Positions 4,119 through 17,247 of a DNA stretch of 64,000 nucleotides are shown in pieces. The notes beneath the pieces are model-generated. The model was not told the origin of the DNA and did no database searches. It was given only the letters and a program-made list of their open reading frames with translations. How positions within the stretch are numbered: the first letter of the stretch is position 1; the number at the start of each line of letters is the position of its first letter. Source of the stretch: Lyngbya sp. CCAP 1446/10. Lineage in GTDB: Bacteria; Cyanobacteriota; Cyanobacteriia; Cyanobacteriales; Microcoleaceae. The stretch lies in contig NZ_JAIGNI010000014.1 in the NCBI RefSeq assembly GCF_026130175.1, positions 1 through 64,000 on the forward strand, read 5' to 3'. The translations under genes and the position numbers were made by a program.

Positions 4119-5601
4119 CAATGGCACTGAAAAAGACTTAATCACGTTCGCAGTTTAGCTTTCAAGACAGAGCGAGGTTCCTGCATTCGAGGATACGGTT
4201 TCGGTCTGCGTTTCAAAACTCGCTTGTTCAGAACGGTCGGGTCGAATCGTGAGTAAATTAGTTGCCACCTGTTCCAAAAGTAATTGACGCCATTGTCGCT
4301 GTTGACATTTTCCTGTAGTTGCCAACAGCGTCAATAACAGATTAAACTGCTGCCTGGTTGATTGGAATGAGAGTTGAAAAACTGTATTTTTTGACGAAGA
4401 TACAGCCTGCCACATAATGGTACGCAACAAAGTGTAAGCTAATAAATGTGTCCAGATTTCTTTTCTCACCATCACCGGAGTTTTAGCTGTTAACATCTCC
4501 ATTTTCAGCGTTGTTTTGACATAGCGTAAATTTACTTCTGCTGCCGACCAACGAAGTCCATATAAAGAAGTCAACCTTTCAACAGTATACCGTTTGGCAT
4601 CCACCAATGTGGTCACTATAATAATACGCTCAGCTCGGAAGCCTCGGCGTTTAATTCGCAGGCATACTTCTCGGACGATGAAACTAGAAGGTAATGCCTC
4701 GAATTCCTCAATAGTCATATGGTTGGGACACTGCCGGGGCTTATTCCAGACGACTTTATGGTCGCCAATTCCCAACTTCTTTCCCCGTCTAAAGTCAGTT
4801 TTACGGAGATGATTTTTCCGAAAAACAGCATCGGCGCCTCGCTCTTTTACGCTTGACTAAATCGACATAATTACCATAAGCTTGATCCGCCAATATCACA
4901 TCGTCGGGGACTAAATTTGCATAAATTAAACGGCTCATCACAATCTCACTGCTTGCCAAGGATGCTATGCCAGCAGATACCACAGCCCCTGTCACCAATG
5001 AAAAGAGTACCACCATTTTAGCGATGGGAAACCCACACCCTGGTTTTTGATTGCTGTGTTGCGGATACTCGGCTTGATTTTCAGGAGTATCGCTCATCAA
5101 CACTGTTGTTCCATCTAGTACCCGCACTCGTCGTCCACACCATTGTTGTTCTATGGGAACTTGCGCTTCTAAAGCAAGAGCGACTATGGGTACTAACTGT
5201 TGAACGAGTTTTTCTGGTAATCGCTTACGAGCTTTACTGTATGCCCCGGTGTCAGAAGAAGGAGGCTTGAGTCCGGCCGCACTTAGCCATGTACTCATCC
5301 GCTTCACGGCTTGACTCAAGCTTTTGTCGGGATCGAGTACCTGGGATACCATCGCCCACAAGGTGACTATCGGTGTGTAGATGCTTTGGTAGTAGGTGAT
5401 TTTCTGATTCGCTAGAAGCGAATGGACTAGCTCATCTGGCAGTAGCTTCTCCCAAGGTGAGGCAACGCTCTGCAAAAATTGTTGTTTGAGAATGCACGCA
5501 CGATTTGGCATAATGGAGAGAGATATTTTGGTTTGTAAGGCAATGATCTATATATATATTGCCTTACAGATTTTTTTTTGCTCACTTTTTCAGTGCCATT
5601 G
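4119..5601. mobile_element. Complete IS4-family insertion sequence, 1483 bp
   Basis: Both ends carry the inverted repeat CAATGGCACTGAAAAAG (17 bp, identical), one reading inwards from 4119 and the other from 5601. The perfect 10-bp direct repeat AACCTGAGTG flanks the element at 4109-4118 and 5602-5611, in the 9-12 bp range typical of IS4. It splits a host gene. Its single transposase gene is frameshifted, so this copy is probably non-autonomous now. Confidence 0.92.
4155..5511 (-). pseudogene. IS4-type transposase, split by a +1 frameshift
   Basis: The N-terminal part (5511-4801) contains VRVLDGTTVLMSDTP and ILADQAYGNYVDL, the regions expected to carry the first catalytic aspartates of the DDE fold. 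The C-terminal part (from about 4840 down to 4155) contains LYGLRWSAAEVNLRYVKTTL, the YREK-like region with the catalytic Glu. The frame breaks near 4845 in an AAAA run. Removing one A gives ...VKRKERGADAVFRKNHL.., which continues smoothly. The shift needed is +1, unlike the usual programmed -1 slippage, so an inactivating insertion or a sequencing error is more likely. Confidence 0.85.
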
Positions 5602-6318: not shown

Positions 6319-8526
6319 TCATGACAGCGATCGCTCTTTGAATCCATCCATGCCTTCCAACCGTAAAAAACTTATTCTATCTGAGCGTCCACCAGCAACA
6401 ATGGTCACTCCATCAGGAGAAATAGCACAAGCGTTTACCTCTCCCTCACAGTCAAAGGTTGTAAGATCCTCACCACTATTTAAATCCCAAACTTTTATGG
6501 TTTTATCCCATGAACCCGAAACGACAAATCGCCCATCCGGTGTAATCGCGACTGTCTTCACCCAATAGTAGTGACCAATCAAAGTATTCAGTTCTGTTCC
6601 ATTATTGATATCCCAGACCTTAAGAGTATTGTCATTAGATGCTGAAACTGCTAATTTTCCGTCTGGAGTAATGGCTACTGCATTTACTAAATCAGTATGT
6701 CCAGTAAGAGTATGCAGTTCTGTTCCACTATTGATATCCCATACCTTGAGGGTTTTATTTCGTAAAGCTGAAATAGCGAGTCGTCCATCAGGAGTAATGA
6801 CAACTGCTGATGCAGACTGTTCATTTATCACACGAAGTTCTGTTCCACTATCAAAATCCCAGACTCTAAGACTTTTGTTGGGAGATTCAGAAATAATCTG
6901 TTGACCATTAGGAGTAATAGCAAGTACCTCTCCGAAATAGTATCCAGTTATAGTACGAAGTTCATTCCCACTATGTAAATCCCATATTCTAATAGTGCGA
7001 TCGTCAGAAGCGGAAATAACGTGTTTGCAATCAGGAGTAATCACCACTCCATTTACATGGTCTTTATGTCCAGTTAAAGTACGTATTTCAGTTCCAGTTG
7101 CTAAATCCCATATTTTGAGAGTACGGTCTTCGGAACTGGAAACAGTAAGTCGTCCATCGGAACTAATGACGACTCTATTTATCCAGTCTTCATGCCCGAT
7201 TTTACCAATATCTTCTGCTGATAAATCCCAGACTCTAAGGGTATTATCTGAGGAAGCAGAAACCGCCCATTTTCCATCATGGGTAATAGCAATTGCATTC
7301 ACAATTAAGCTATGTCCAGAAAGAATTCGGAGTTCTTGCCTTGTTTGCAAATCGTAAACTTTAATAGGACTGGCATTTGAACCACAAATAGCTAGTTTTC
7401 CATCTGGAGTAATAGCTACTGAGTGGAAACGATAAGCCTCTTCTATGACAATAGATACTTCATTTTCACTACTTAAGTCCCAGACTCTGAGAGTATCATC
7501 ATCAGCAGCCGAAACCACCCATTTCCCGTCTGGAGTAATAGCCACTGCTCGTACTGCGCCAGTATGTCCAGTGAGGATACGCAACTCGGTTCCTCTCTGC
7601 AAATCCCAAACTCTAAGAGTTTTATCCCATGCGCTAGAGACTGCTAGTTTACCATCAGGGGTAACGGCAACTGCATTCACCGACTCCGTATGTCCGATGA
7701 GGGTATGTACTTCGTTTCCACTATTCAAATCCCAAATTTTGAGAGTATGATCTTGTGAAGCAGAGATAATAAGTTTACCATCTAGAGTAATAGCAACTGC
7801 ATTTACCCCATTTTTATGCCCTGTTAGGGTACGCAGTTCACTTCTATTATGTAAATCCCAAACTTTGAGAGTACGATCGTTGGAAGCGGAAATCGCTAAT
7901 TGTCCATTAGGAGCGATCGCAACCCCATTAATCTCACCAGCGTGCCCAGTGAGGGTATACAACTCAACTCCAGTGTATAAATCCCAGACTTTGAGAGTGC
8001 GATCGTCTGAACCAGAAACAGCTATTTTTCCATCAGGGGTAACAGCAACTGCTTTCACCCAGTCACGATGTCCGGTGAGGGTGCGGACTAATGTTCCTTC
8101 TGGTGGTGTCAGATTAGATGTCAAAGGACGCAACCAGGGATATCCCAATTCCTTTGTTTGAGCAAGCATTGCTTGAAGTTCAGGCTGTTTGAAGGACAGT
8201 AAACGACCCCAGAGTTGTCCTGGTAGTTGTGCTGGATCATCAGCCAAAACATTTGCCGCTAAGTTAATTGCACTTTTAATTAATTTCAGACTAGCTTTTT
8301 TTTCATCAGATATCAGAATATCAGGTGCTAAAGCTAAATCATAATCTTCAATTAATACCTGTGGTGTTAAATCATAAACCTTAGCCTCAATGAAATCAAA
8401 ATCAGTCAAAAAGCGAAATAATTTATTGTTATGACCAGCTTGTGCCATGTGAAATGGTAAGTTTTTCAAGGCATAATTTCGATTGTCATCAGATAAACTG
8501 GCTAACCAATCAAATATCTTCATCAT
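6319..8526 (-). CDS. WD40 beta-propeller protein, likely sensor half of a STAND system
   Basis: About 735 residues. A helical N-terminus (to ~140, with LTDFDFIEAKV as seen in cyanobacterial NACHT-WD40 proteins) is followed by about 14 WD40 repeats of the form LTGHxxxVNAVAITPDGKxAVSASxDxTLKVWDL. This is enough for two seven-bladed propellers. The start is ATG 8526 or 8523, inside the end of the upstream STAND gene (overlap 14-17 bp). A single-base change at the overlap would fuse the two genes, so they are probably two halves of one STAND-WD40 protein or a coupled pair. The propellers probably bind a trigger ligand (family knowledge). Confidence 0.9.
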   Translation of the reverse strand: MMKIFDWLASLSDDNRNYALKNLPFHMAQAGHNNKLFRFLTDFDFIEAKVYDLTPQVLIEDYDLALAPDILISDEKKASLKLIKSAINLAANVLADDPAQLPGQLWGRLLSFKQPELQAMLAQTKELGYPWLRPLTSNLTPPEGTLVRTLTGHRDWVKAVAVTPDGKIAVSGSDDRTLKVWDLYTGVELYTLTGHAGEINGVAIAPNGQLAISASNDRTLKVWDLHNRSELRTLTGHKNGVNAVAITLDGKLIISASQDHTLKIWDLNSGNEVHTLIGHTESVNAVAVTPDGKLAVSSAWDKTLRVWDLQRGTELRILTGHTGAVRAVAITPDGKWVVSAADDDTLRVWDLSSENEVSIVIEEAYRFHSVAITPDGKLAICGSNASPIKVYDLQTRQELRILSGHSLIVNAIAITHDGKWAVSASSDNTLRVWDLSAEDIGKIGHEDWINRVVISSDGRLTVSSSEDRTLKIWDLATGTEIRTLTGHKDHVNGVVITPDCKHVISASDDRTIRIWDLHSGNELRTITGYYFGEVLAITPNGQQIISESPNKSLRVWDFDSGTELRVINEQSASAVVITPDGRLAISALRNKTLKVWDINSGTELHTLTGHTDLVNAVAITPDGKLAVSASNDNTLKVWDINNGTELNTLIGHYYWVKTVAITPDGRFVVSGSWDKTIKVWDLNSGEDLTTFDCEGEVNACAISPDGVTIVAGGRSDRISFLRLEGMDGFKERSLS

Positions 8527-9928
8527 TATCAAACAATCCTTTTGTTAAACTATTGACTATTAATTGATTTATCCCTGGGATTGTCAGCCCTGTTTCCTCT
8601 AAAATGTCCTTACGGTGCAAAAAATCCCGAAAACTGGTGTGGTAAACGCTATAGCGCTTTTGATGCTCTTTGATGAAATTGTGCAAAAACTGTTCCCACT
8701 CATTCAATACAGGTTGCACTATACGACTATCCTCTCCCGAAAAATCACAAATTTGTTGGCGAGAAACAGGTTGCTTCACCTCTCCTAGAATGTAGACAAT
8801 TTTAATTTTTGCATCTGGCAAGGGATTAGCTGTCATTCCCATGCGTCGCCAGTGAAAACTATAGTAACCTTGCAGACCTTGGGGAAAGCTTTCGAGAGTT
8901 AAATCTTTATATAATCCTTTTTCAATGTCTAGCAGAACATAGCACAAGTACATGAAATTGTTTTCACTTTTATTTGCTATGTTATCAGTAAATGCAATGA
9001 TTGTTTCTTGGCGTTCATCAATCTGCTGCCGCAGATTCTCACTGCCATCAACTCGGTTCTGAATGTATAGACGCACATCACGCTGGCTATCAATCTCATA
9101 GTCCAGCAAACTGATAATCTGCACGGGTGCGTAGGTTGTAAAAGGCACTTCTACACCCCGTCGCCTGGTCATTATGAAGTACACCCCATCAGGTAAGTGA
9201 GGTGGCAGGTATAAGATATTTGCATCCCTGTAACTGCCTGAGTCAACTTCATCCAAAGCATCAATAGCTATTACTACAGGTTGACCATTCCTTCTTTGGG
9301 CTACTTCGTCCAACAAATGCCCCAGAAATTCTCCATCTTGTGTTGCATTCGATGGTAAAGGGTCATAAGGAAGTTGGTAACGGGCAATCAGTTGTTTGCT
9401 GACACTTTCCAAGAATTGGTCTGCTCGATTGGGCCCTTGCAGTTGCACGTTGAAATGGGCGATGCACCCAGTATCTTGCACGTACTTTGCCAAGATTGCG
9501 CTTTTACCCTGCCCGGGGTCGCCAATAATAGTGAAGTAGCCCTTTTTGTTTTCTTGTATGAAGGTTTGGATGGCATCAAACACGTACTCGCGCCCAACGA
9601 AACCTTCTGTTTTGTCTTGGATTAGTGACTGAAACTGGCTCAAAGAAGTAAAACTTGCAGATTGTCCTGAACCTGAACGGTGAGACAGAAGAGATTGTAT
9701 TATTTGTGCATCAGATCCATAAATAACAATGTTGCCATCGCCAGTCACATTGTTATTTCCTGGTACAATCTGCGAATTTGTCACATCTCCACCCACACCC
9801 ACTGCTCCAGGGGCACTAGCTAGAACAAGTTTCCCTGTTTGAATTGCAGCCGCAAGCGCTTGAATATCTGTTTCATTGCGACTCCCTGCTTTTACTCGTT
9901 CAACGATTTCTTGAAGATTGTCTGACAT
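8510..9928 (-). CDS. STAND (NACHT-like) NTPase with N-terminal adaptor and GDxN element
   Basis: A 472-residue protein. Residues 1-38 form a short helical adaptor (LQEIVERVKAGSRNETDIQA). Residues 40-70 carry the element GGDVTNSQIVPGNNNVTGD. The P-loop is GDPGQGKS at 136-143 and Walker B is VVIAIDALDEVD at 218-229. The rest is the winged-helix region expected of NACHT/STAND switches. It lacks sensor repeats of its own because the WD40 part is in the next, overlapping gene. In characterised STAND systems ligand binding drives oligomerisation and effector activation. Here the effector is most likely the caspase encoded just upstream (inference from order and the shared element). Confidence 0.88.
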   Translation of the reverse strand: MSDNLQEIVERVKAGSRNETDIQALAAAIQTGKLVLASAPGAVGVGGDVTNSQIVPGNNNVTGDGNIVIYGSDAQIIQSLLSHRSGSGQSASFTSLSQFQSLIQDKTEGFVGREYVFDAIQTFIQENKKGYFTIIGDPGQGKSAILAKYVQDTGCIAHFNVQLQGPNRADQFLESVSKQLIARYQLPYDPLPSNATQDGEFLGHLLDEVAQRRNGQPVVIAIDALDEVDSGSYRDANILYLPPHLPDGVYFIMTRRRGVEVPFTTYAPVQIISLLDYEIDSQRDVRLYIQNRVDGSENLRQQIDERQETIIAFTDNIANKSENNFMYLCYVLLDIEKGLYKDLTLESFPQGLQGYYSFHWRRMGMTANPLPDAKIKIVYILGEVKQPVSRQQICDFSGEDSRIVQPVLNEWEQFLHNFIKEHQKRYSVYHTSFRDFLHRKDILEETGLTIPGINQLIVNSLTKGLFDNDEDI

Positions 9929-9960
9929 ACCTTAACTCACCTGTTCCTTTATTTGTATTT

Positions 9961-10869
9961 TTATAAATTCTCAAAAGTTGGCTCTGGTTCAGTGAATCCT
10001 CGCCAAAGATAATCCGTTAATGCTTGCCCCATTCGTTGTTCTTCCGTTGGATTTGTCGGTAACTTCCACCGCAATGACTTGTAGAGAGCCGTGCGATACA
10101 GGTCAAATACTGACTCCAGCAAGTCTCCATAAATGACAGCCGCATCTAGCATCCAACAATGAGCAAACCATGCTGAAACGATTCCCACTGGAATTGCCCA
10201 CCACGCCCAGATGCCCCACACCAGAAATAATACACTCCAAATCCAAACCCGAACCATTGTGTTGAGTTGAGTTCGAGCCTCAGTTAGTTCTGTCTTGACT
10301 TCATTCGGTAACAGTAGCCATAATCGCGGAAAACAAACTACAGCTTCCAACCCATACTTTTCAAGCGGACGGCGCTCCGCAGCACGCAGGATATTTCCCA
10401 ATCGAGTAGGCATTAAGCGATCGCTCTGCGTTGGAGTTTGCTTCAGTTGCCAATCCAACCGAACATATTCATCGGTTTCATCAGGCGTTAGCTGTTCTAA
10501 CCCTTTGGCTGCCAATCCCTGAAATCGTTTCTCTGCTCTATCTTTTAGAGTTACCTGTCTTTTGACGAACCAGCGTCGCAGGGGCTGCATCCAACGGGGC
10601 CAGTAGCCTTCCAGCAGCCGCAGTACAGGTAATTCAAACTGCCGAAGTGCGATCGCAGAAACAGCCACTACCAACAAACCTGCAATCAGTTGAGCAATAG
10701 GTAAAGCCGCCGACTTTTGAGTTAGTACCTGTTCCAATTGTTTGAAGCCAAACCGCCAACCCCATGCCAGCAAACCTCCAAACCAAAAAATACAAGCTGG
10801 GGTAAGGACTTTAGCAACCCATTCCTTAGCCAGGTTGTCACCCAGACTCTCCAAAAATTTCGGTAGCAT
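9961..10869 (-). CDS. Predicted multi-pass membrane protein of the caspase/STAND cluster
   Basis: A 302-residue protein with hydrophobic segments near 22-40, 58-78, 208-226 and 228-248. A basic, probably cytoplasmic region lies at 90-150 (PRWMQPLRRWFVKRQ). There is no enzyme motif and I do not recognise the family. It sits 8 bp downstream of the caspase gene and 32 bp upstream of the STAND gene, so it is in the same transcription unit. It could be a membrane anchor or a pore-forming effector of the module (inference only). Confidence 0.72.
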   Translation of the reverse strand: MLPKFLESLGDNLAKEWVAKVLTPACIFWFGGLLAWGWRFGFKQLEQVLTQKSAALPIAQLIAGLLVVAVSAIALRQFELPVLRLLEGYWPRWMQPLRRWFVKRQVTLKDRAEKRFQGLAAKGLEQLTPDETDEYVRLDWQLKQTPTQSDRLMPTRLGNILRAAERRPLEKYGLEAVVCFPRLWLLLPNEVKTELTEARTQLNTMVRVWIWSVLFLVWGIWAWWAIPVGIVSAWFAHCWMLDAAVIYGDLLESVFDLYRTALYKSLRWKLPTNPTEEQRMGQALTDYLWRGFTEPEPTFENL

Positions 10870-10877
10870 GGCAATCC

Positions 10878-12122
10878 TTAAGATTTGAGAACTGGTATTA
10901 ACTCAACATCACGATGAATTGAACATTTAGGAATTGTCTGTCCAACAGAGCGCCGAATCCAATACATATCGCAATCTGTATGGGGACAAACGTATTTTGT
11001 AGAAGCTATTGGTTGTGCCTGTCCCGGTAATGGCTCAAAACTTTTGGCATTTCCACCCATTTCTGAATCTTTTGACTTTTCAGAATTAATGTTTCTGCCT
11101 TGTTGGACAATATTACCGCTGCCTACCACATTGCGATCGCCCGGAAGGATTGTGCTGTTGTCAGCCCTTCCTCCGATTGCCACGCTTCTTTGCCCTTCTG
11201 CATGAACAATATTATTGCCAGCAACATTTATTGGTAATTGCTTGACAGCCTCCCAACCTTCTGCCGGAAGTCCCTTGCCACCACGTAGGAGGGCGATCGG
11301 AAAATTTGTTGTCTCACCCCTAAACCAAGGTTGCTGGATTGCTGAATGTTCCTGAGATGCACTTTTCGGTACAGCCTTATCCAGATGTTTCATAATATCC
11401 GCAACACCAACCTTTGTCTCTCCCGGCAGATTTGCAGCTCCCTCCAACGCTTCAATTAGATGATAAGTATAGATGCTCATAGAGTCATCCTTACGAATCC
11501 AGGATTTTTGGCTTCCCCCACAGGATGTAAACACGGCGCGACCTTTGCCTTTAGCTAATTCATCAAGCCGCCCTTTGGCCGGAACTGCTGGCACAAAACC
11601 CGGCGGTAATTTTAGGTCAGCCTCCCCAGTCTTAGCGGCAGCCATTCCCTGAGCGTGGCAACAGTCAATTATAACTAGCAGACGCTGTGACTGTATCTCC
11701 GACAGTGCATTGGTGAAGTCAACAGCAGACAGGGCTGAGGCAGAGATGTCAAAATCAATATCGTGTGGAATTAGATAATAGCAATCTGTGGATTGGTCTA
11801 ACCAACCATGACCGGAGTAATAGATTACAACTGTTGATTCTGGATGGGCAGCAACTTGTTTCTTAAGCCAAGCGAGACCGTCTAAGATGGCAGTGCGCGT
11901 TGCTCCAGCATCGTGTAGCAAGCGGATGTGCTGGTCATCATTGGGGTAAGCACAGAGGTTGGGGTCGATAAGGATCTTTCGGAGCGCCTGAACGTCTTTG
12001 ACTGTAACAGGAAGCGAGTATTTTTGGTGAGCGGATTCGCCAACACCGATGAGCAAGGCATAACCAAGAGTGAATGTGTCTGACATACAAAGGGTAGATA
12101 TTGTGGGTTTAAACTCAGCCAT
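10878..12122 (-). CDS. Caspase-like (C14/metacaspase) protease with GDxN element and zinc-binding tail
   Basis: A 414-residue protein. The caspase fold spans about 15-280, with the catalytic His in YYSGHGW (His105) and the Cys in IIDCCHAQG (Cys155). Residues ~305-345 carry GGRADNSTILPGDRNVVGSG, the same element found at the N-termini of neighbouring STAND proteins. The last 40 residues have CPHTDC...CSIH (Cys379, Cys384, Cys400, His403), a probable zinc knuckle. The likely true start is Met13 (12086), where the conserved part (MSDTFTLGYALLIGVG) begins. Expected role: executioner protease switched on through the shared element by the STAND partners. Confidence 0.9.
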   Translation of the reverse strand: MAEFKPTISTLCMSDTFTLGYALLIGVGESAHQKYSLPVTVKDVQALRKILIDPNLCAYPNDDQHIRLLHDAGATRTAILDGLAWLKKQVAAHPESTVVIYYSGHGWLDQSTDCYYLIPHDIDFDISASALSAVDFTNALSEIQSQRLLVIIDCCHAQGMAAAKTGEADLKLPPGFVPAVPAKGRLDELAKGKGRAVFTSCGGSQKSWIRKDDSMSIYTYHLIEALEGAANLPGETKVGVADIMKHLDKAVPKSASQEHSAIQQPWFRGETTNFPIALLRGGKGLPAEGWEAVKQLPINVAGNNIVHAEGQRSVAIGGRADNSTILPGDRNVVGSGNIVQQGRNINSEKSKDSEMGGNAKSFEPLPGQAQPIASTKYVCPHTDCDMYWIRRSVGQTIPKCSIHRDVELIPVLKS

Positions 12123-12191
12123 TTTAGATAGTTTATCTTTTTTTCGGAAACCTACCGAGGTAGAGGCGATCGCTATCGCGTCTGAGTATTC

Positions 12192-15100
12192 CTACCCGTT
12201 GCGTTCCTCAAATTCCTCACGTCCTAATTCACGTTCCAAGTCTTGCTCTAATGATTCCTTCATTTGCTTTGCAAAACTGCGAACTCGAAAGTTTTCATCT
12301 TGAAGCCAGGGAGTTATCTCTTCTAAACGCCTTCTGTTGAAGGCAGAGAATCCACCAAATATAGCCCCTGGTGTTGAGCTAATAGAACAAGAAATGGAGT
12401 CTAATACAGCCTTATCATTAGTACGGCAAATTATTTCTCGACACAAGCTGTAGAAAAGTTGACCACTTTTAAACTCCTGCAAAATTTTAGCTACCGCATG
12501 GACTTTTTGAATGTCTCCTGATTCAACCCACTCCATTAACACACTATAGAGAGGCTCTTCTAAGCTACCATTAATTTCCTTCAATACGTCAGGAGCCTCA
12601 TAAAACCAAAAACCATCTCGCAGCATCCAGTCCCGCACACGGCGCAGGATATCAGGATATTCAAAACTAGAACGTATGCTTTTTGGTGCAATGGAATAAG
12701 AAAAATGGATTGCATTATAATACCCTGTCCTGCCAGAATTTTTTGCTTTATTTATGAGTCGCTGTTCGATAAAGTTTAGCAGTTGGATTGGGGAAATCTT
12801 TCCTAGCCGATTTAGACAGTTTTCGACATTATAGTTGAATGTAGAAAGGCGTTCAAATTTTTGGACAATAGCAACAAAGTCATCATTTTCTATAAACTTT
12901 AGTCCCCAATTATCTCCGCAAGATTCAAAGGATGAATACAGAACATCTGCTACACGCAGCAGTACACTTTCATTAGAGCTAGCAGCAAATAATTTTATAA
13001 GCTTAATTGCTTCCGGGGGATTATGGGGTGCAAATCGTGAGATAATTTTAAGAATTTCGCAATCAACAGATAAAGAGTGTTTGGTTGTCAGGTAGTGCAA
13101 AACTTCCCATTCTTGATTTTGGAATCGACTCCAATCCATAAAATGGTAACTTTTTGCAACAGCAAACCAGAGAACTAGATCGTCACTATCAGTCCAAGAC
13201 TTGACATAAGACCAAGCTACTTCTAAATCTGATTGATACAACCCTCCAATAACATGACCAAGGTGATGCTTGATACTTAGATTTTCTGTAATTGCTTTTT
13301 CTACCAGTTGCTGTGCAAGATTGGGATATTTTTCTCCTAGCTTATAAAACAATAAATTAAGCCAATGTGTATTACTTTCGCCTGCCTGTAGACACTGTTC
13401 TACTATTTTTTCTATCTCGCAGATAACCGATTCCATTGTAGCCGGCAAAATGCCTTCTAGATACTGCTCAATTACCTCTAGCTGGCGTTTCTCAATTACT
13501 TCCCAGTCGGAATTATCGTAGTCTGAATCACCCAGCAAGCGATTGCTAATCAAGACCCGATATAGCTGATACAGCTTATTATTTTGTAAGTGCTGTTTCA
13601 ATTGTTCAAATTCATCTAACTGGTAGCGACTGAAGCGAGGAGCATACCAGATCCACTCGGCTACCGCATCCAAAACAGGTAATTCTGCTTGAGGTATTAC
13701 CCGATCTAATAAAAACTTAGCTGTCTTTTGGCAGTCTGATTGTAGCCACGCCCAAGTTTCAGTGGCGATGTCTTCAGCACTGATGGAACCAGGCAAAAAC
13801 ACGGAACCATTTAAAGCTTTAATAATCTTTAACTTATGTGACAATTGATCGGATTTATTATACGATTGGTAGAGAATTTCTAAAGCTTGTTCGCGAATTT
13901 GACGTAAAGGTTCAGAGGGTGCCAACATAAATTGTCGTATAAGAATGTGCCGGGGCTTAGTCGGGTCTATTCGAGTACCATCAAATTCCATATTGAGCAT
14001 CGGTCGAATCAAGGAAAGGCTAAGCTCTAAGTTGTTGGTAAAATCATTTTCGAGCCAGACCTCTAGCTTCTTGAGAAGGGTTAGTTGCATTGCATACGGC
14101 TTATTTAATTTAAATTTACCCATCTCAACCAGCGCTTTACTTGCTTGTTCGCGTACTTGAGCATACTCTGCGACATCAAGCCGATATCCGGCAAGTTTGT
14201 GCAGATAGTCTATAGAATCGTTCAGGCTATTCCAGTAGGTATGGCTTAAAACATCTACTGCTTCACGCAATACCATTTCGTGCTTTATTTCTAAGCAATT
14301 TTGCCAAAGTAGTTGATAAGATTCAGGGGGTAATTCTTGCCCATCCACAATATCTGCTACAATCAACAGTACATCATCAGAACGCAAGTAATCTACGTCT
14401 CGTAACCATTTCAGCACTAATAGTCTGGCAATGTTTCCCCGATTATTTACTAGATCGTGCAGTTCCCGCAATTTCGGCCCTAGTAACAGACCCGCTTGAC
14501 GTTCACCTTTGACTTCTGCTTGTGCCAAAGTTGTCATAATCTGTTTGGGTTTTAGTTGAAAAAATGGCTCAATAATTTTCTTTTCATAGTCTGCTTGTTT
14601 GGTCTGGAAAAAGTGGTGAATTAAAATGTGGTCAGCCAGAACTTCAGAAGTAATCTTTAGTGTCATCCAGTAGCGATCAATTAAACCAGCTTCTACCAAT
14701 CGCCAAATAATACGGTCTTCATCAGGTTGTGAGATACCGACAACTAACTGTACTTTCTTTCGTAACTGCTGATTATTGAGGTCAAGCGTACCTAAAGCCG
14801 CTAAAACCTCTAGGTAGCTGATATAGCGATCGCTAAACTCAGATTCATCCAAATCGCGAATGATGTCATTCAAGTAGCGGGTAAGTACATCGTCGCGGTT
14901 AATCTTTATTATCGACTCGCCGCGCTGAACTAAACGAGCGGCAATACCAGCAATAAGCGGTTCCCCTTTAGCAAAACTGACTATGGCATGGCGGGTATAT
15001 TCGTCAGTAATTTCGTAGGGTGGGGTTTGCAAGAGTTGGTCTATGTCAAGGTTTTTTAAAGCTTCAACCTCGATTTCCTTGAGCTGATAGCCAGCAGGTA

Positions 15101-15836
15101 GACCTAATTTATCTTTGACTGAATCTTTGAAAACGCTGCGCGTAGCAAGAACAAGCGTGATTTTGCTAGCTAATTCGGGATTAACTAATACTTCACCTAA
15201 TTGGTATAAAAGTTGAAATCGATGAGCATCGTCTACAACGATTACATGATGGCTATTGGGATCTAATGAAGCAAGGTCGTACTGTACAGACTCAGCGCGG
15301 ATGCGAACGTACCGCAGAGATTTTTCACTAGGAATAAGTTTGGGAAGCTCTAGTAACAAACGAGTTTTGCCAATCCCACCTGCTCCATGCAGTATGATCG
15401 CATCGGTTGGCTCAGCTAGGAAGGATTTAATCTGAACGAGCTGTTCGTCTCGTCCTACAGGAACTTCCCAATAGCCAGCCAATTTTTCGGCAGCAGCTAC
15501 CGCCGATTTAGAAAATTCAGAGTGGGTGAGTAAGGCGGAAGGCTTAAAGGATTTTAGAATCTCTTGAACCATTTTGTAGATGGCTTCAGCATCGGAACCT
15601 TTATAGACGACTTGATTGTTATCGCCAATCACGTTGTTATTACCAATCACGTTGTTATTGCCAGTGATGATGATAGAATCGGCGATACTGCCATCTACAG
15701 CTATAGCCCGTTCCCCAGTAGCTAACATAATTTGTCTGGTTTCCAGAGCTTGGCATAAAATCTGGTAGTCAGCGTTGGTACAAGTCTTTGCCGCTAGTCG
15801 TTCTATGATTGCTCTGAGTTCATTAATATCTATCAC
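12192..15836 (-). CDS. Large STAND NTPase with N-terminal adaptor, GDxN element and helical sensor region
   Basis: A 1214-residue protein. Residues 1-40 are the helical adaptor (ELRAIIERLAAKTCTNADYQ). Residues 44-78 hold the GDxN element with an internal six-residue duplication (NNNVIG twice, then GDNN). The P-loop is GAGGIGKT at 151-158 and Walker B is VIVVDDAH at 198-205. From ~400 to the end it is all-helical without a clear repeat consensus, probably a HEAT/TPR-like solenoid acting as sensor. It is the first large gene of the minus-strand run leading to the caspase (69 bp upstream of it). It is a second sensor beside the WD40 one, so the module may have two triggers feeding one effector (inference). 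Confidence 0.86.
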   Translation of the reverse strand: MIDINELRAIIERLAAKTCTNADYQILCQALETRQIMLATGERAIAVDGSIADSIIITGNNNVIGNNNVIGDNNQVVYKGSDAEAIYKMVQEILKSFKPSALLTHSEFSKSAVAAAEKLAGYWEVPVGRDEQLVQIKSFLAEPTDAIILHGAGGIGKTRLLLELPKLIPSEKSLRYVRIRAESVQYDLASLDPNSHHVIVVDDAHRFQLLYQLGEVLVNPELASKITLVLATRSVFKDSVKDKLGLPAGYQLKEIEVEALKNLDIDQLLQTPPYEITDEYTRHAIVSFAKGEPLIAGIAARLVQRGESIIKINRDDVLTRYLNDIIRDLDESEFSDRYISYLEVLAALGTLDLNNQQLRKKVQLVVGISQPDEDRIIWRLVEAGLIDRYWMTLKITSEVLADHILIHHFFQTKQADYEKKIIEPFFQLKPKQIMTTLAQAEVKGERQAGLLLGPKLRELHDLVNNRGNIARLLVLKWLRDVDYLRSDDVLLIVADIVDGQELPPESYQLLWQNCLEIKHEMVLREAVDVLSHTYWNSLNDSIDYLHKLAGYRLDVAEYAQVREQASKALVEMGKFKLNKPYAMQLTLLKKLEVWLENDFTNNLELSLSLIRPMLNMEFDGTRIDPTKPRHILIRQFMLAPSEPLRQIREQALEILYQSYNKSDQLSHKLKIIKALNGSVFLPGSISAEDIATETWAWLQSDCQKTAKFLLDRVIPQAELPVLDAVAEWIWYAPRFSRYQLDEFEQLKQHLQNNKLYQLYRVLISNRLLGDSDYDNSDWEVIEKRQLEVIEQYLEGILPATMESVICEIEKIVEQCLQAGESNTHWLNLLFYKLGEKYPNLAQQLVEKAITENLSIKHHLGHVIGGLYQSDLEVAWSYVKSWTDSDDLVLWFAVAKSYHFMDWSRFQNQEWEVLHYLTTKHSLSVDCEILKIISRFAPHNPPEAIKLIKLFAASSNESVLLRVADVLYSSFESCGDNWGLKFIENDDFVAIVQKFERLSTFNYNVENCLNRLGKISPIQLLNFIEQRLINKAKNSGRTGYYNAIHFSYSIAPKSIRSSFEYPDILRRVRDWMLRDGFWFYEAPDVLKEINGSLEEPLYSVLMEWVESGDIQKVHAVAKILQEFKSGQLFYSLCREIICRTNDKAVLDSISCSISSTPGAIFGGFSAFNRRRLEEITPWLQDENFRVRSFAKQMKESLEQDLERELGREEFEERNG

Positions 15837-15959
15837 AGATTTTGCCTCTTAGTTCAAAAATTAAGCATTATCCTTACTTTTGTCTGTGTCACCATACCTG
15901 ATTGGGAATTGTTGGCGATCGCTACTTTCTTATCATAGCCAATTTTTGCTGCACTGCTT

Positions 15960-16209
15960 TTAACACATGACGTTTAGATTATTATTGCCAGCGTTAATAA
16001 TGCCGCTCACTTTGCCGCCAGTAGCAGTAAAGCGATCGCCACTCGCAATAACAGAAAAGGCGGTCAATTTCTACCTGTTTACCTTGCACTTTACTTTCGA
16101 TCTTGCGATCTAATAACCTTTCACCACTTAGCACGCGATCGATTATTCTGCCAGCTCTAATTACTTTTCTATTCTTCATAGAATGTAAGTCTTTGTATAG
16201 GTTATTCAT
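15960..16209 (-). pseudogene. Degraded GDxN-element protein (frameshifted)
   Basis: A 71-residue frame (16209-15994) starts MNNLYKDLHSMKNRKVIRAG. Its C-terminal residues look unrelated, but the adjacent frame over the same bases reads SVIASGDRFTATGGKVSGII and then NAGNNN before a stop at 15960. That is the glycine/asparagine element of the neighbouring STAND and caspase proteins. The frame change near 16065 suggests a short adaptor protein now broken, or a remnant of a STAND gene start. It lies between two intact carriers of the element. Confidence 0.5.
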
Positions 16210-16211
16210 AG

Positions 16212-16976
16212 CTATCTACTATTAAAAAAGTAGTTGATAATTTTCTGAATAAAATAGATATGAGTTTGAAAAACAGCCCAGAAAGGACATACTATGCAAA
16301 ATAATAAATTTTCCATGATTTTTATGCTCTTCAACTGAATGTAGCACGATCCTATAATTGTATAAGTAAACAGAATTATTCCGAAGCCATAAACACTATT
16401 TTTAGATGTAATTATGTACAGATACTCAAAAATCACTGCCAGCAAAAATTGATAGCAATAAAGAAAAATAATAAACCAGATTGGCAAGAGAAGAGTTTTT
16501 GACCACAATCGTCTACTATTAAATTGAAGTATCATACAAATCCCTATAAGGATAATAATGAATTGGTAATAAATAATAATTAATTGATTAAATCTTACAA
16601 TTATATTCCCCAAAATACTTGCTGTAATAGAAGTAATATTCCGATAAAGAAATGAAATTAAGATACTTATAAATACCCAACCGATAAGCAGAAATAAGAA
16701 TGAAGTAAATTTGTAAAATCTGTTTTCTTTCGGCCTATTCGGCCTATTCGGCCTATTCAGGTGATCGATAACTTGAGCGATAACTTCAGGAGGTAAAATA
16801 TAAGATATCTTGTTGTGATCGCCAGTTATGATGACGGAGTTGTTAGCATCGCCTGCAATCGCAACTGCCCTTTCTTCATATGCAAGCGCGAGCTTTTCAA
16901 CATCGGCTTGACTGTAATCTTCTTTTTCGATACGTTTAAGGATGGCATCTAGCTCGTTTTGCATAGCGTAAAACAC
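16212..16976 (-). CDS. Membrane protein with N-terminal adaptor and GDxN element
   Basis: A 254-residue protein. Residues 5-37 form the adaptor (ELDAILKRIEKEDYSQADVE) and 38-58 the element AGDANNSVIITGDHNKISY. A short Arg-Pro-Asn triplet repeat (about 76-84) comes from three copies of a 9-bp DNA unit at 16731-16757. At least five hydrophobic segments fill residues ~90-250. The conserved start is probably Met5. The layout is adaptor plus membrane domain, as expected of a membrane-acting effector recruited through the adaptor. It ends 2 bp before the next small reading frame, which suggests co-transcription. Confidence 0.72.
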   Translation of the reverse strand: MFYAMQNELDAILKRIEKEDYSQADVEKLALAYEERAVAIAGDANNSVIITGDHNKISYILPPEVIAQVIDHLNRPNRPNRPKENRFYKFTSFLFLLIGWVFISILISFLYRNITSITASILGNIIVRFNQLIIIYYQFIIILIGICMILQFNSRRLWSKTLLLPIWFIIFLYCYQFLLAVIFEYLYIITSKNSVYGFGIILFTYTIIGSCYIQLKSIKIMENLLFCIVCPFWAVFQTHIYFIQKIINYFFNSR

Positions 16977-16980
16977 ATAA

Positions 16981-17247
16981 TTATACAGTAGTCCGTGTAC
17001 GAAGTCTTGAAGTCCATTTTAGTCGAACAGCAATACCAAAACCAAAACGCTCTTGCACTAAAGCTAAATTGTTAAGGATGGCACTTTGCTGAATAAACTC
17101 TCCAGCTTCTTCTGCTAGCTGGCTTGCTTGTTCAAATAGAGTAGTGCCACCCTCTAAATCACCCTCGGACAGTAAAAGATTAGCTTCCTCTACCAAATCC
17201 ACATGGTTTTTAGACGTATTATTTGATATTTTGTCAGATTTTTGCAT
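16981..17247 (-). CDS. Short TPR-like protein, probably truncated
   Basis: 88 residues. The section LVEEANLLLSEGDLEGGTTL and the following EQASQLAEEAGEFIQQSAI fits one and a half tetratricopeptide units. The last ~18 residues (RLKWTSRLRTRTTV) are basic and unlike a TPR, so the frame may be shifted or the gene cut short. It is immediately upstream of the adaptor-membrane gene (4 bp gap) and probably part of the same unit. Confidence 0.5.
   Translation of the reverse strand: MQKSDKISNNTSKNHVDLVEEANLLLSEGDLEGGTTLFEQASQLAEEAGEFIQQSAILNNLALVQERFGFGIAVRLKWTSRLRTRTTV

Follow-up and report, generated by a model that had tools for sequence, protein, structure and literature searches.

EADs were described by Kaur et al. 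(2020) as small domains that are repeated in neighbouring genes and fused there to different effectors, with homotypic contacts predicted between them; most are helical, and EAD10 is one of three with alpha+beta character. EAD10 has since been linked to a TPR-GreA/B-C-PIN system (Kaur 2021), and resemblance between the EADs of locus-mates is described in this literature as general. This study focused on a cluster of minus-strand genes at positions 6319-17247 of the first 64000 nt (the window) of a contig in the 6.75-Mb genome of Lyngbya sp. CCAP 1446/10, in which four proteins carry the same short two-strand Gly/Asn element: the STAND NTPases STAND472 and SOL1214, a C14 caspase and the membrane protein TM254. 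The element appears to be the beta half of EAD10, and in the caspase it stands alone in a C-terminal tail. Such tails recur beside EAD10 genes in other genomes, where tail and neighbour tend to agree in subtype, and the locus is probably a STAND-to-caspase signalosome of the EAD10 class, comparable to an apoptosome or inflammasome. The literature comparison used the available text of PMC7159879, PMC8195603, PMC8086366, PMC12261475, PMC7889193, PMC8283722 and PMC10907252, and statements on these sources extend as far as that text. Relatives are cited by genome (G) and locus (L) number where needed.

The EAD10 element in the Lyngbya cluster

A 17-row profile of the element, searched against the whole genome, found four proteins at E≤1e-10 (the caspase at 6e-16), and these are exactly the four minus-strand ORFs (open reading frames) that an initial annotation, made from the sequence alone, had named as its carriers. 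The next matches were a second stretch of STAND472 (0.04) and two elsewhere (0.6 and 1.7), and with this profile no other protein of the genome reached E≤0.01. These E-values are partly circular, because the profile includes the window's own rows. A less circular profile, trained on 15 segments of neighbouring EAD10 proteins (three from the window, none from a caspase), found the caspase tail at 1.7e-11. Chance low-complexity sequence was rejected as an explanation of the element, which is confined to this locus in the genome.

Three of the four proteins match the published domain EAD10 (PF19954) at their N-termini: STAND472 (24.7 bits) and SOL1214 (28.5 bits) above the curated cut-off of 24.1, and TM254 (17.9 bits) below it (Pfam E=0.0033; PF19954 at 16806-16961, E=0.0037). 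They are the only matches in the genome at E≤10 and are joined to different domains, and Pfam makes no EAD10 call on the caspase. The helical adaptor that had been noticed on three proteins is, together with the element, EAD10. Its novelty is not supported, since the domain is already published and homotypic coupling of neighbours was proposed in 2020. The caspase has the beta element and lacks the helical half. The features are, in order of position:

6319-8532, minus strand: WD40 propeller protein (PF00400 and other Pfam matches), presumed sensor half of a split STAND-WD40
8510-9928, minus strand: STAND472, EAD10 plus STAND NTPase (Pfam EAD10 2.5e-5)
9686-9925, minus strand: EAD10 domain of STAND472 from profile searches, with its beta element at 9725-9820
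9961-10869, minus strand: MEM302, a membrane protein that lacks the element and lies 8 nt downstream of the caspase
10878-12122, minus strand: C14 caspase (PF00656 2.4e-18; His codon 11808-11810, Cys codon 11658-11660)
10887-11006, minus strand: small Cys/His ribbon (CPHTDC...KCSIH) after the caspase tail, present also in the caspase of Lyngbya HA4199-MV5
11094-11201, minus strand: EAD10 beta half alone, in the C-terminal tail of the caspase
12192-15836, minus strand: SOL1214, EAD10 (1.6e-6) plus P-loop STAND NTPase (AAA_16 2.2e-6, below its cut-off) plus a long helical region, putatively made of repeats
15558-15830, minus strand: EAD10 domain of SOL1214 from profile searches, with its beta element at 15618-15722
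15960-16209, minus strand: possible decayed copy of the element
16212-16976, minus strand: TM254, EAD10 (helices and a short GDxN beta part, element at 16800-16877) plus about six transmembrane stretches, a candidate membrane effector
16981-17247, minus strand: apparent TPR remnant (73% identity over 77 residues to a G352 ORF)

The beta half comprises about 25-35 residues and occurs as two subtypes, GDxN and GKYN; when 50 EAD10s are aligned, the two strands of the window's GDxN form coincide with those of the GKYNVNIGxGxDIHIGD form. Matches to PF19954 at E≤0.001 occur in 16 of 386 cyanobacterial genomes and are often clustered in islands (e.g., 12 matches within 33 kb in G167). Across 373 genomes of the phylum, the GDxN profile matched three, namely this one, G060 at a single locus and, once and weakly, G355. 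Unrelated housekeeping contexts, which had been named as a finding that would refute the initial interpretation, did not appear in the present genome, where the element was found in no other context. When 80 EAD10 proteins were scanned against Pfam (from 96 non-redundant ones, leaving out 10 with bodies under 90 residues and 6 others, including some of more than 1500 residues), 78 matched EAD10, 21 NACHT, 7 FGE-sulfatase and 6 WD40 (E≤1e-4).

The stretch at 15960-16209, first taken for a broken copy, gave profile E-values of 90 and 29 and is absent from the genome search list at E≤10; with the frame picked by eye, its score was reached by only 1 of 2000 shuffles.

Beta tails of caspases and their EAD10 neighbours

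The window caspase scores 67.1 bits with PF00656 (cut-off 21.4), and its catalytic His and Cys are invariant in 10/10 and 34/34 aligned rows. In an AlphaFold2 (AF2) model the catalytic domain, except residues 141-160, has mostly a predicted local distance difference test score (pLDDT) of 78-96, its best Foldseek match is the MALT1 paracaspase (E=7e-10), and the predicted structure is a caspase fold with an intact His-Cys dyad. The beta tail lies after this domain, inside residues 283-356, where block-mean pLDDT is 30-46, so the tail is disordered in the predicted monomer. The Cys/His ribbon that follows (block means 73-77) presumably binds metal. The motif ends 78 residues from the C-terminus here and at most 12 residues from it in 35 of the 48 beta-tailed caspases described below.

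Caspases were collected from those 46 of 388 genomes of the order that have close relatives, from EAD10 matches, and from the best 80 of 457 named matches. Of 150 ORFs, 127 had a near-full catalytic domain, and 102 remained once duplicates at 95% identity were dropped (L155 merging into L153). A locus extended up to about 10 kb on each side of the caspase, less on short contigs, and L017 and L018, in which only EAD10 helices match, did not count as neighbours. Of the 102 caspases, 48 scored as beta-tailed. Another gene of the locus carried EAD10 or its beta half in 36/48 tailed versus 3/54 untailed cases (Fisher p=1e-13), in 30/41 versus 2/53 (p=3e-13) without EAD10-sourced loci and the window, and in 32/42 versus 2/28 (p=6e-9) within the subfamily of at least 45% identity (n=70). 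In 29 of the 36 coupled loci no more than 400 bp separate the caspase from its nearest partner ORF, which is on the same strand in 27 of these 29. The partners are EAD10 or beta-only proteins, STANDs only in part, and three of them (L145, L150, L219) have the beta part alone, near the N-terminus. In the 36 coupled caspases, no match at E≤1 began within the helical half of EAD10. A caspase with the beta half and without the helices shows that the two can be separated, and the recurrence of this form suggests that the beta half works as a separable, matched tag.

The match extends to subtype. All 31 single-subtype tails agree with their EAD10 neighbours (29 GKYN, including one whose sole partner is beta-only, and 2 GDxN). 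Five further tails carry both subtypes and match trivially, their full-EAD10 neighbours being GDxN in three and GKYN in two; in Lyngbya HA4199-MV5 such a tail shares its locus with partners of both kinds, five EAD10 proteins of the GDxN subtype and a protein of 401 residues whose N-terminus has a GKYN beta part. Similarity of a tail to its own-locus partner exceeded that in permuted loci (p=5e-5), and a partial Mantel test with caspase identity controlled gave r=0.41 between tail and partner similarity (p=2e-4). In G399 a private variant is found on both sides (tail NINLGNIGQARDITLG, neighbour NINLGNIGQARDINIG).

There are also natural swaps. Bodies of STAND472 homologues are 279/359 (77.7%) identical in G197 and 268/363 (73.8%) in G305, where both the EAD10 and the same-locus caspase tail are GKYN, as against GDxN for the two in the window. 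Homologues of SOL1214 with 63-66% identity, from Iningainema, Nostoc mirabile and Nodularia, have GDxN and stand beside caspase tails bearing GDxN, and one in G408 (47.6% body identity) has a GKYN EAD10 with a GKYN caspase. By locus, body identity to SOL1214 is 63-66% for L152, L155 and L153 and 48% for L145.

Other caspases end differently. In sister caspases (L120, L122, L136, L137, L163, L164, L167, L178) a helical LAILEEQAAGYG-like segment, probably another adaptor, replaces the beta tail; five untailed caspases were scored as ending in a helical segment, none of them with an EAD10 neighbour. Proteins of about 1300-1650 residues (L107, L112, L113, L118, L142 and similar) carry the same caspase domain at their end with a different Gly/Asn-rich C-terminal tail (e.g., NISHINVSGNSQTSITIGDIG in L113), with no EAD10 seen nearby, and the tails of the L107/L113 type are probably further tag families.

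Sensors, membrane proteins and adjoining genes

From 17247 down to 6319 the gene order is TPR fragment, TM254, SOL1214, caspase, MEM302, STAND472 and WD40, with small gaps except for about 375 nt before SOL1214. SOL1214 and the WD40 protein are the presumed sensors. The STAND472 and WD40 ORFs overlap by 23 nt as listed, and a frameshift artefact or sequencing error was judged unlikely because G197 and G305 are split alike, each with an 8-nt overlap; the loci recorded with this split are L048 and L053. A SOL1214-type STAND followed by a tailed caspase recurs in the three genera Iningainema, Nostoc (N. mirabile) and Nodularia, and the caspase-MEM302-EAD10 order in Lyngbya HA4199-MV5, so the gene neighbourhood is not peculiar to this genome. 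The Nodularia relative (L153) also carries a PIN-TPR-GreABC protein (4.9e-31).

The idea of a multi-input, multi-output network is only partly supported, and the wiring may be of that kind; similarities among the window's elements do not show which protein pairs with which. Pair scores within the window were 91 for STAND472-SOL1214, 85 for caspase-STAND472 and 79 for caspase-SOL1214, which gives no clean pairing, and two private sensor-effector pairs were rejected.

MEM302 has no Pfam match and no shared element, and its family was found in 9 of 373 genomes. In Lyngbya HA4199-MV5 (L150) it again directly follows the caspase and is itself followed by an EAD10 protein, in Thiomargarita (L228) it lies 2.4 kb after a caspase, and each of eight loci examined around further homologues (L252-L259) has a CHAT gene no more than about 2 kb upstream of it. 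MEM302 is therefore a recurrent membrane partner of caspase-fold peptidases, and in the window it is likely to be the output of the caspase it adjoins. The L252-L259 gene sets, consisting of a CHAT protein (with TPR in 7 of 8), MEM302 and, in several, a small protein of about 157 residues, are possibly an undescribed CHAT-membrane system. TM254 has six hydrophobic 19-residue stretches by a simple hydropathy count, and no homologue of this part was found in the relative loci compared. The TPR fragment matches the N-terminal part of a 605-residue ORF of G352, on a contig that also carries a MEM302-CHAT set. Adjoining the cluster, at 4155-5511, a sequence is spread over two ORFs which we take to be transposase-like.

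Two further neighbourhoods may be mentioned. A conserved protein of about 306 residues, with no Pfam match above cut-off, adjoins GKYN-tailed caspases (e.g., L053:1104-2021, L035:2416-3336, L048:12962-13894) and lies within 600 bp of 12/48 beta-tailed versus 2/54 other caspases; beside the window caspase it is absent, and MEM302 is found there. A Scytolyngbya GDxN locus (L057:4280-8441, with L210 on the same contig) has an EAD10-like protein and a two-subtype caspase with further genes adjoining, presumably vWA and MoxR look-alikes.

A putative signalling complex, its rivals and its relatives

The matched tags suggest that the sensors recruit the caspase by like-to-like contact, in a manner resembling the assembly of animal and fungal cell-death complexes, and they support the proposal that the shared element assembles a complex. 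An invader or a damage signal would be sensed by the two STAND NTPases, SOL1214 with its helical solenoid and STAND472 with its separately encoded WD40 propeller; they would then oligomerise and so display their N-terminal EAD10 domains as a cluster. The beta half of these, two short strands around a G[DN]xN turn, may contact the same motif in the caspase tail, and a similar like-to-like beta contact could involve the N-terminus of TM254. Recruitment would concentrate the caspase and activate it by proximity, MEM302 could serve as its membrane partner (substrate, output or anchor), and the likely result would be cell death or growth arrest that limits the spread of phage in the filament.

Several observations weigh against such a signalosome. 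In 15 of 36 loci the tail is matched as well or better by at least 10 other loci. Twelve of the 48 beta-tailed caspases have no EAD10 in their locus; six of these loci extend at least 6 kb on both sides, which is not explained by truncation, so some tails must have partners elsewhere or none. Three loci have EAD10 and no recognised caspase tail. At least one EAD10 protein joins a full EAD10 to a caspase-fold CHAT domain, and the beta-only form is therefore no rule for peptidases. The structure model of EAD10 is weak (pLDDT 66 overall, about 48 in the beta part), its best match among solved structures had E=0.24, and no published experiment on this locus was found. On the caspase tree, neither the tail-neighbour association (4.3 pairs for, 0 against, 4.7 undecided, median p=0.125) nor the subtype match (2.6 for, 0 against, 0.4 undecided, median p=0.25) is significant. 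The tree provides only 9 well-supported independent contrasts for coupling and 3 for subtype; all informative ones agree, and the tests point the same way with too little power.

This lack of power is one reason to consider that locus-mates resemble each other by ancestry, through local domain duplication and sequence exchange between neighbouring genes, with no specific contact, as might be expected if resemblance is general for EADs. We regard this as unlikely: coupled caspases carry only the beta half, both genes differ in subtype at a STAND body identity of 74-78%, and sequence passed from an N-terminal site in one gene to a C-terminal site in another, or the reverse, would presumably still need selection to be retained. 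It is similarly improbable that the helical half does the coupling in the manner of a death fold and that the beta part is a linker or inherited decoration. Most EADs are helical, Kaur et al. (2020) treat EAD10 as one alpha+beta domain, and the helices are the better part of its model; however, the 36 coupled caspases have the beta half with no helical-half match, three partners are themselves beta-only, and the subtypes are defined in the beta half.

The beta motif might instead be a protease site or docking signal, the caspase cutting its EAD10 partners and its own tail being a product-like mimic. Orthocaspases are reported to cleave after basic residues (PMC6426788), and the residue after IG(D/N) is Arg or Lys in 59 of 81 GKYN-type EAD10s versus 7 of 45 caspase tails, where Val is commonest (18/45). 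In the window, however, the Arg sits in the caspase tail (GDRN) and is absent from the three partners (GNNN, GNNN and GDHN), and this explanation seems very unlikely.

If like-to-like recruitment is correct, the contact could take the form of a templated cross-beta (amyloid-type) stack. EAD10 would then consist of two parts, its beta half acting as an amyloid-type signalling motif whose variants (GDxN, GKYN and private ones) form a recognition code, and STANDs would template the caspase tail into the stack. We put this forward tentatively, with some doubt; its appeal lies in the likeness of layout to BASS and to fungal NLR pairs. Were it true, it would mean a bacterial inflammasome built on amyloid instead of death folds, and a single protease could answer to two sensor families through a two-subtype tail such as that of Lyngbya HA4199-MV5. 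Signalling from bacterial STANDs to a separate protease has so far been mostly prediction. The natural swaps, in which sensor and protease tags are both of the other kind on STAND bodies that are 74-78% identical, point to a piece of 25-35 residues whose binding could be assayed directly, and supply defined pairs along with mismatched controls. They would also join the EAD and amyloid-signalling literatures, which describe similar layouts separately.

Among known systems, PADLOC returned partial matches to caspase, STAND_TPR, Avs1b, HEAT-ARM_XIII and OloA models, with no complete system. The caspase domain is similar to that of EACC1-caspase (NF047832; 1.9e-26), but at 92.8 bits it is below the cut-off of 140; a Pfam-A scan of the neighbours, for which the presence of an EACC1 model in Pfam-A was unchecked, gave no EACC1 match. 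The CHAT operons with the MEM302 family have the same membrane protein downstream of a caspase-fold peptidase, but this is CHAT instead of C14, and no EAD10 was found in the eight loci. In fungal NLR/HET-S and HELLP, and in the mammalian RIPK1/RIPK3 RHIM, a receptor beta motif templates the same motif of the executioner; here the executioner is a protease, no homology is shown, and the amyloid likeness is by analogy. BASS1-10 with NLR and Bell proteins (Dyrka et al. 2020) are closer in layout, with several families of 20-40-residue motifs that are N-terminal on the NLR and C-terminal on the adjacent effector, and the corresponding arrangement, the same short motif at a STAND N-terminus and at the C-terminus of an adjacent effector, is seen in the 36 loci with a tail and an EAD10 or beta-only neighbour, not all of these neighbours being STANDs. 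In the window, however, a caspase takes the place of Bell as effector, the receptor carries a helical part in addition, and the likeness is one of layout, not of sequence comparison.

Dyrka et al. (2020) itself aside, neither the beta-only caspase tail nor the subtype match was found in searches of an open-access library. The nearest relative is EAD10 as described by Kaur et al. (2020, 2021), which shares with this cluster the domain itself (on three window proteins), the coupling of neighbouring genes, the STAND setting and, in relatives, PIN-TPR-GreABC. The cluster and its relatives differ in two features, neither of which was found in the available text of those papers: a beta half that occurs by itself at the C-terminal end of a caspase, and the two matched subtypes. 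The EAD principle is known, and what is added here is its caspase-tail form and the matched subtypes.

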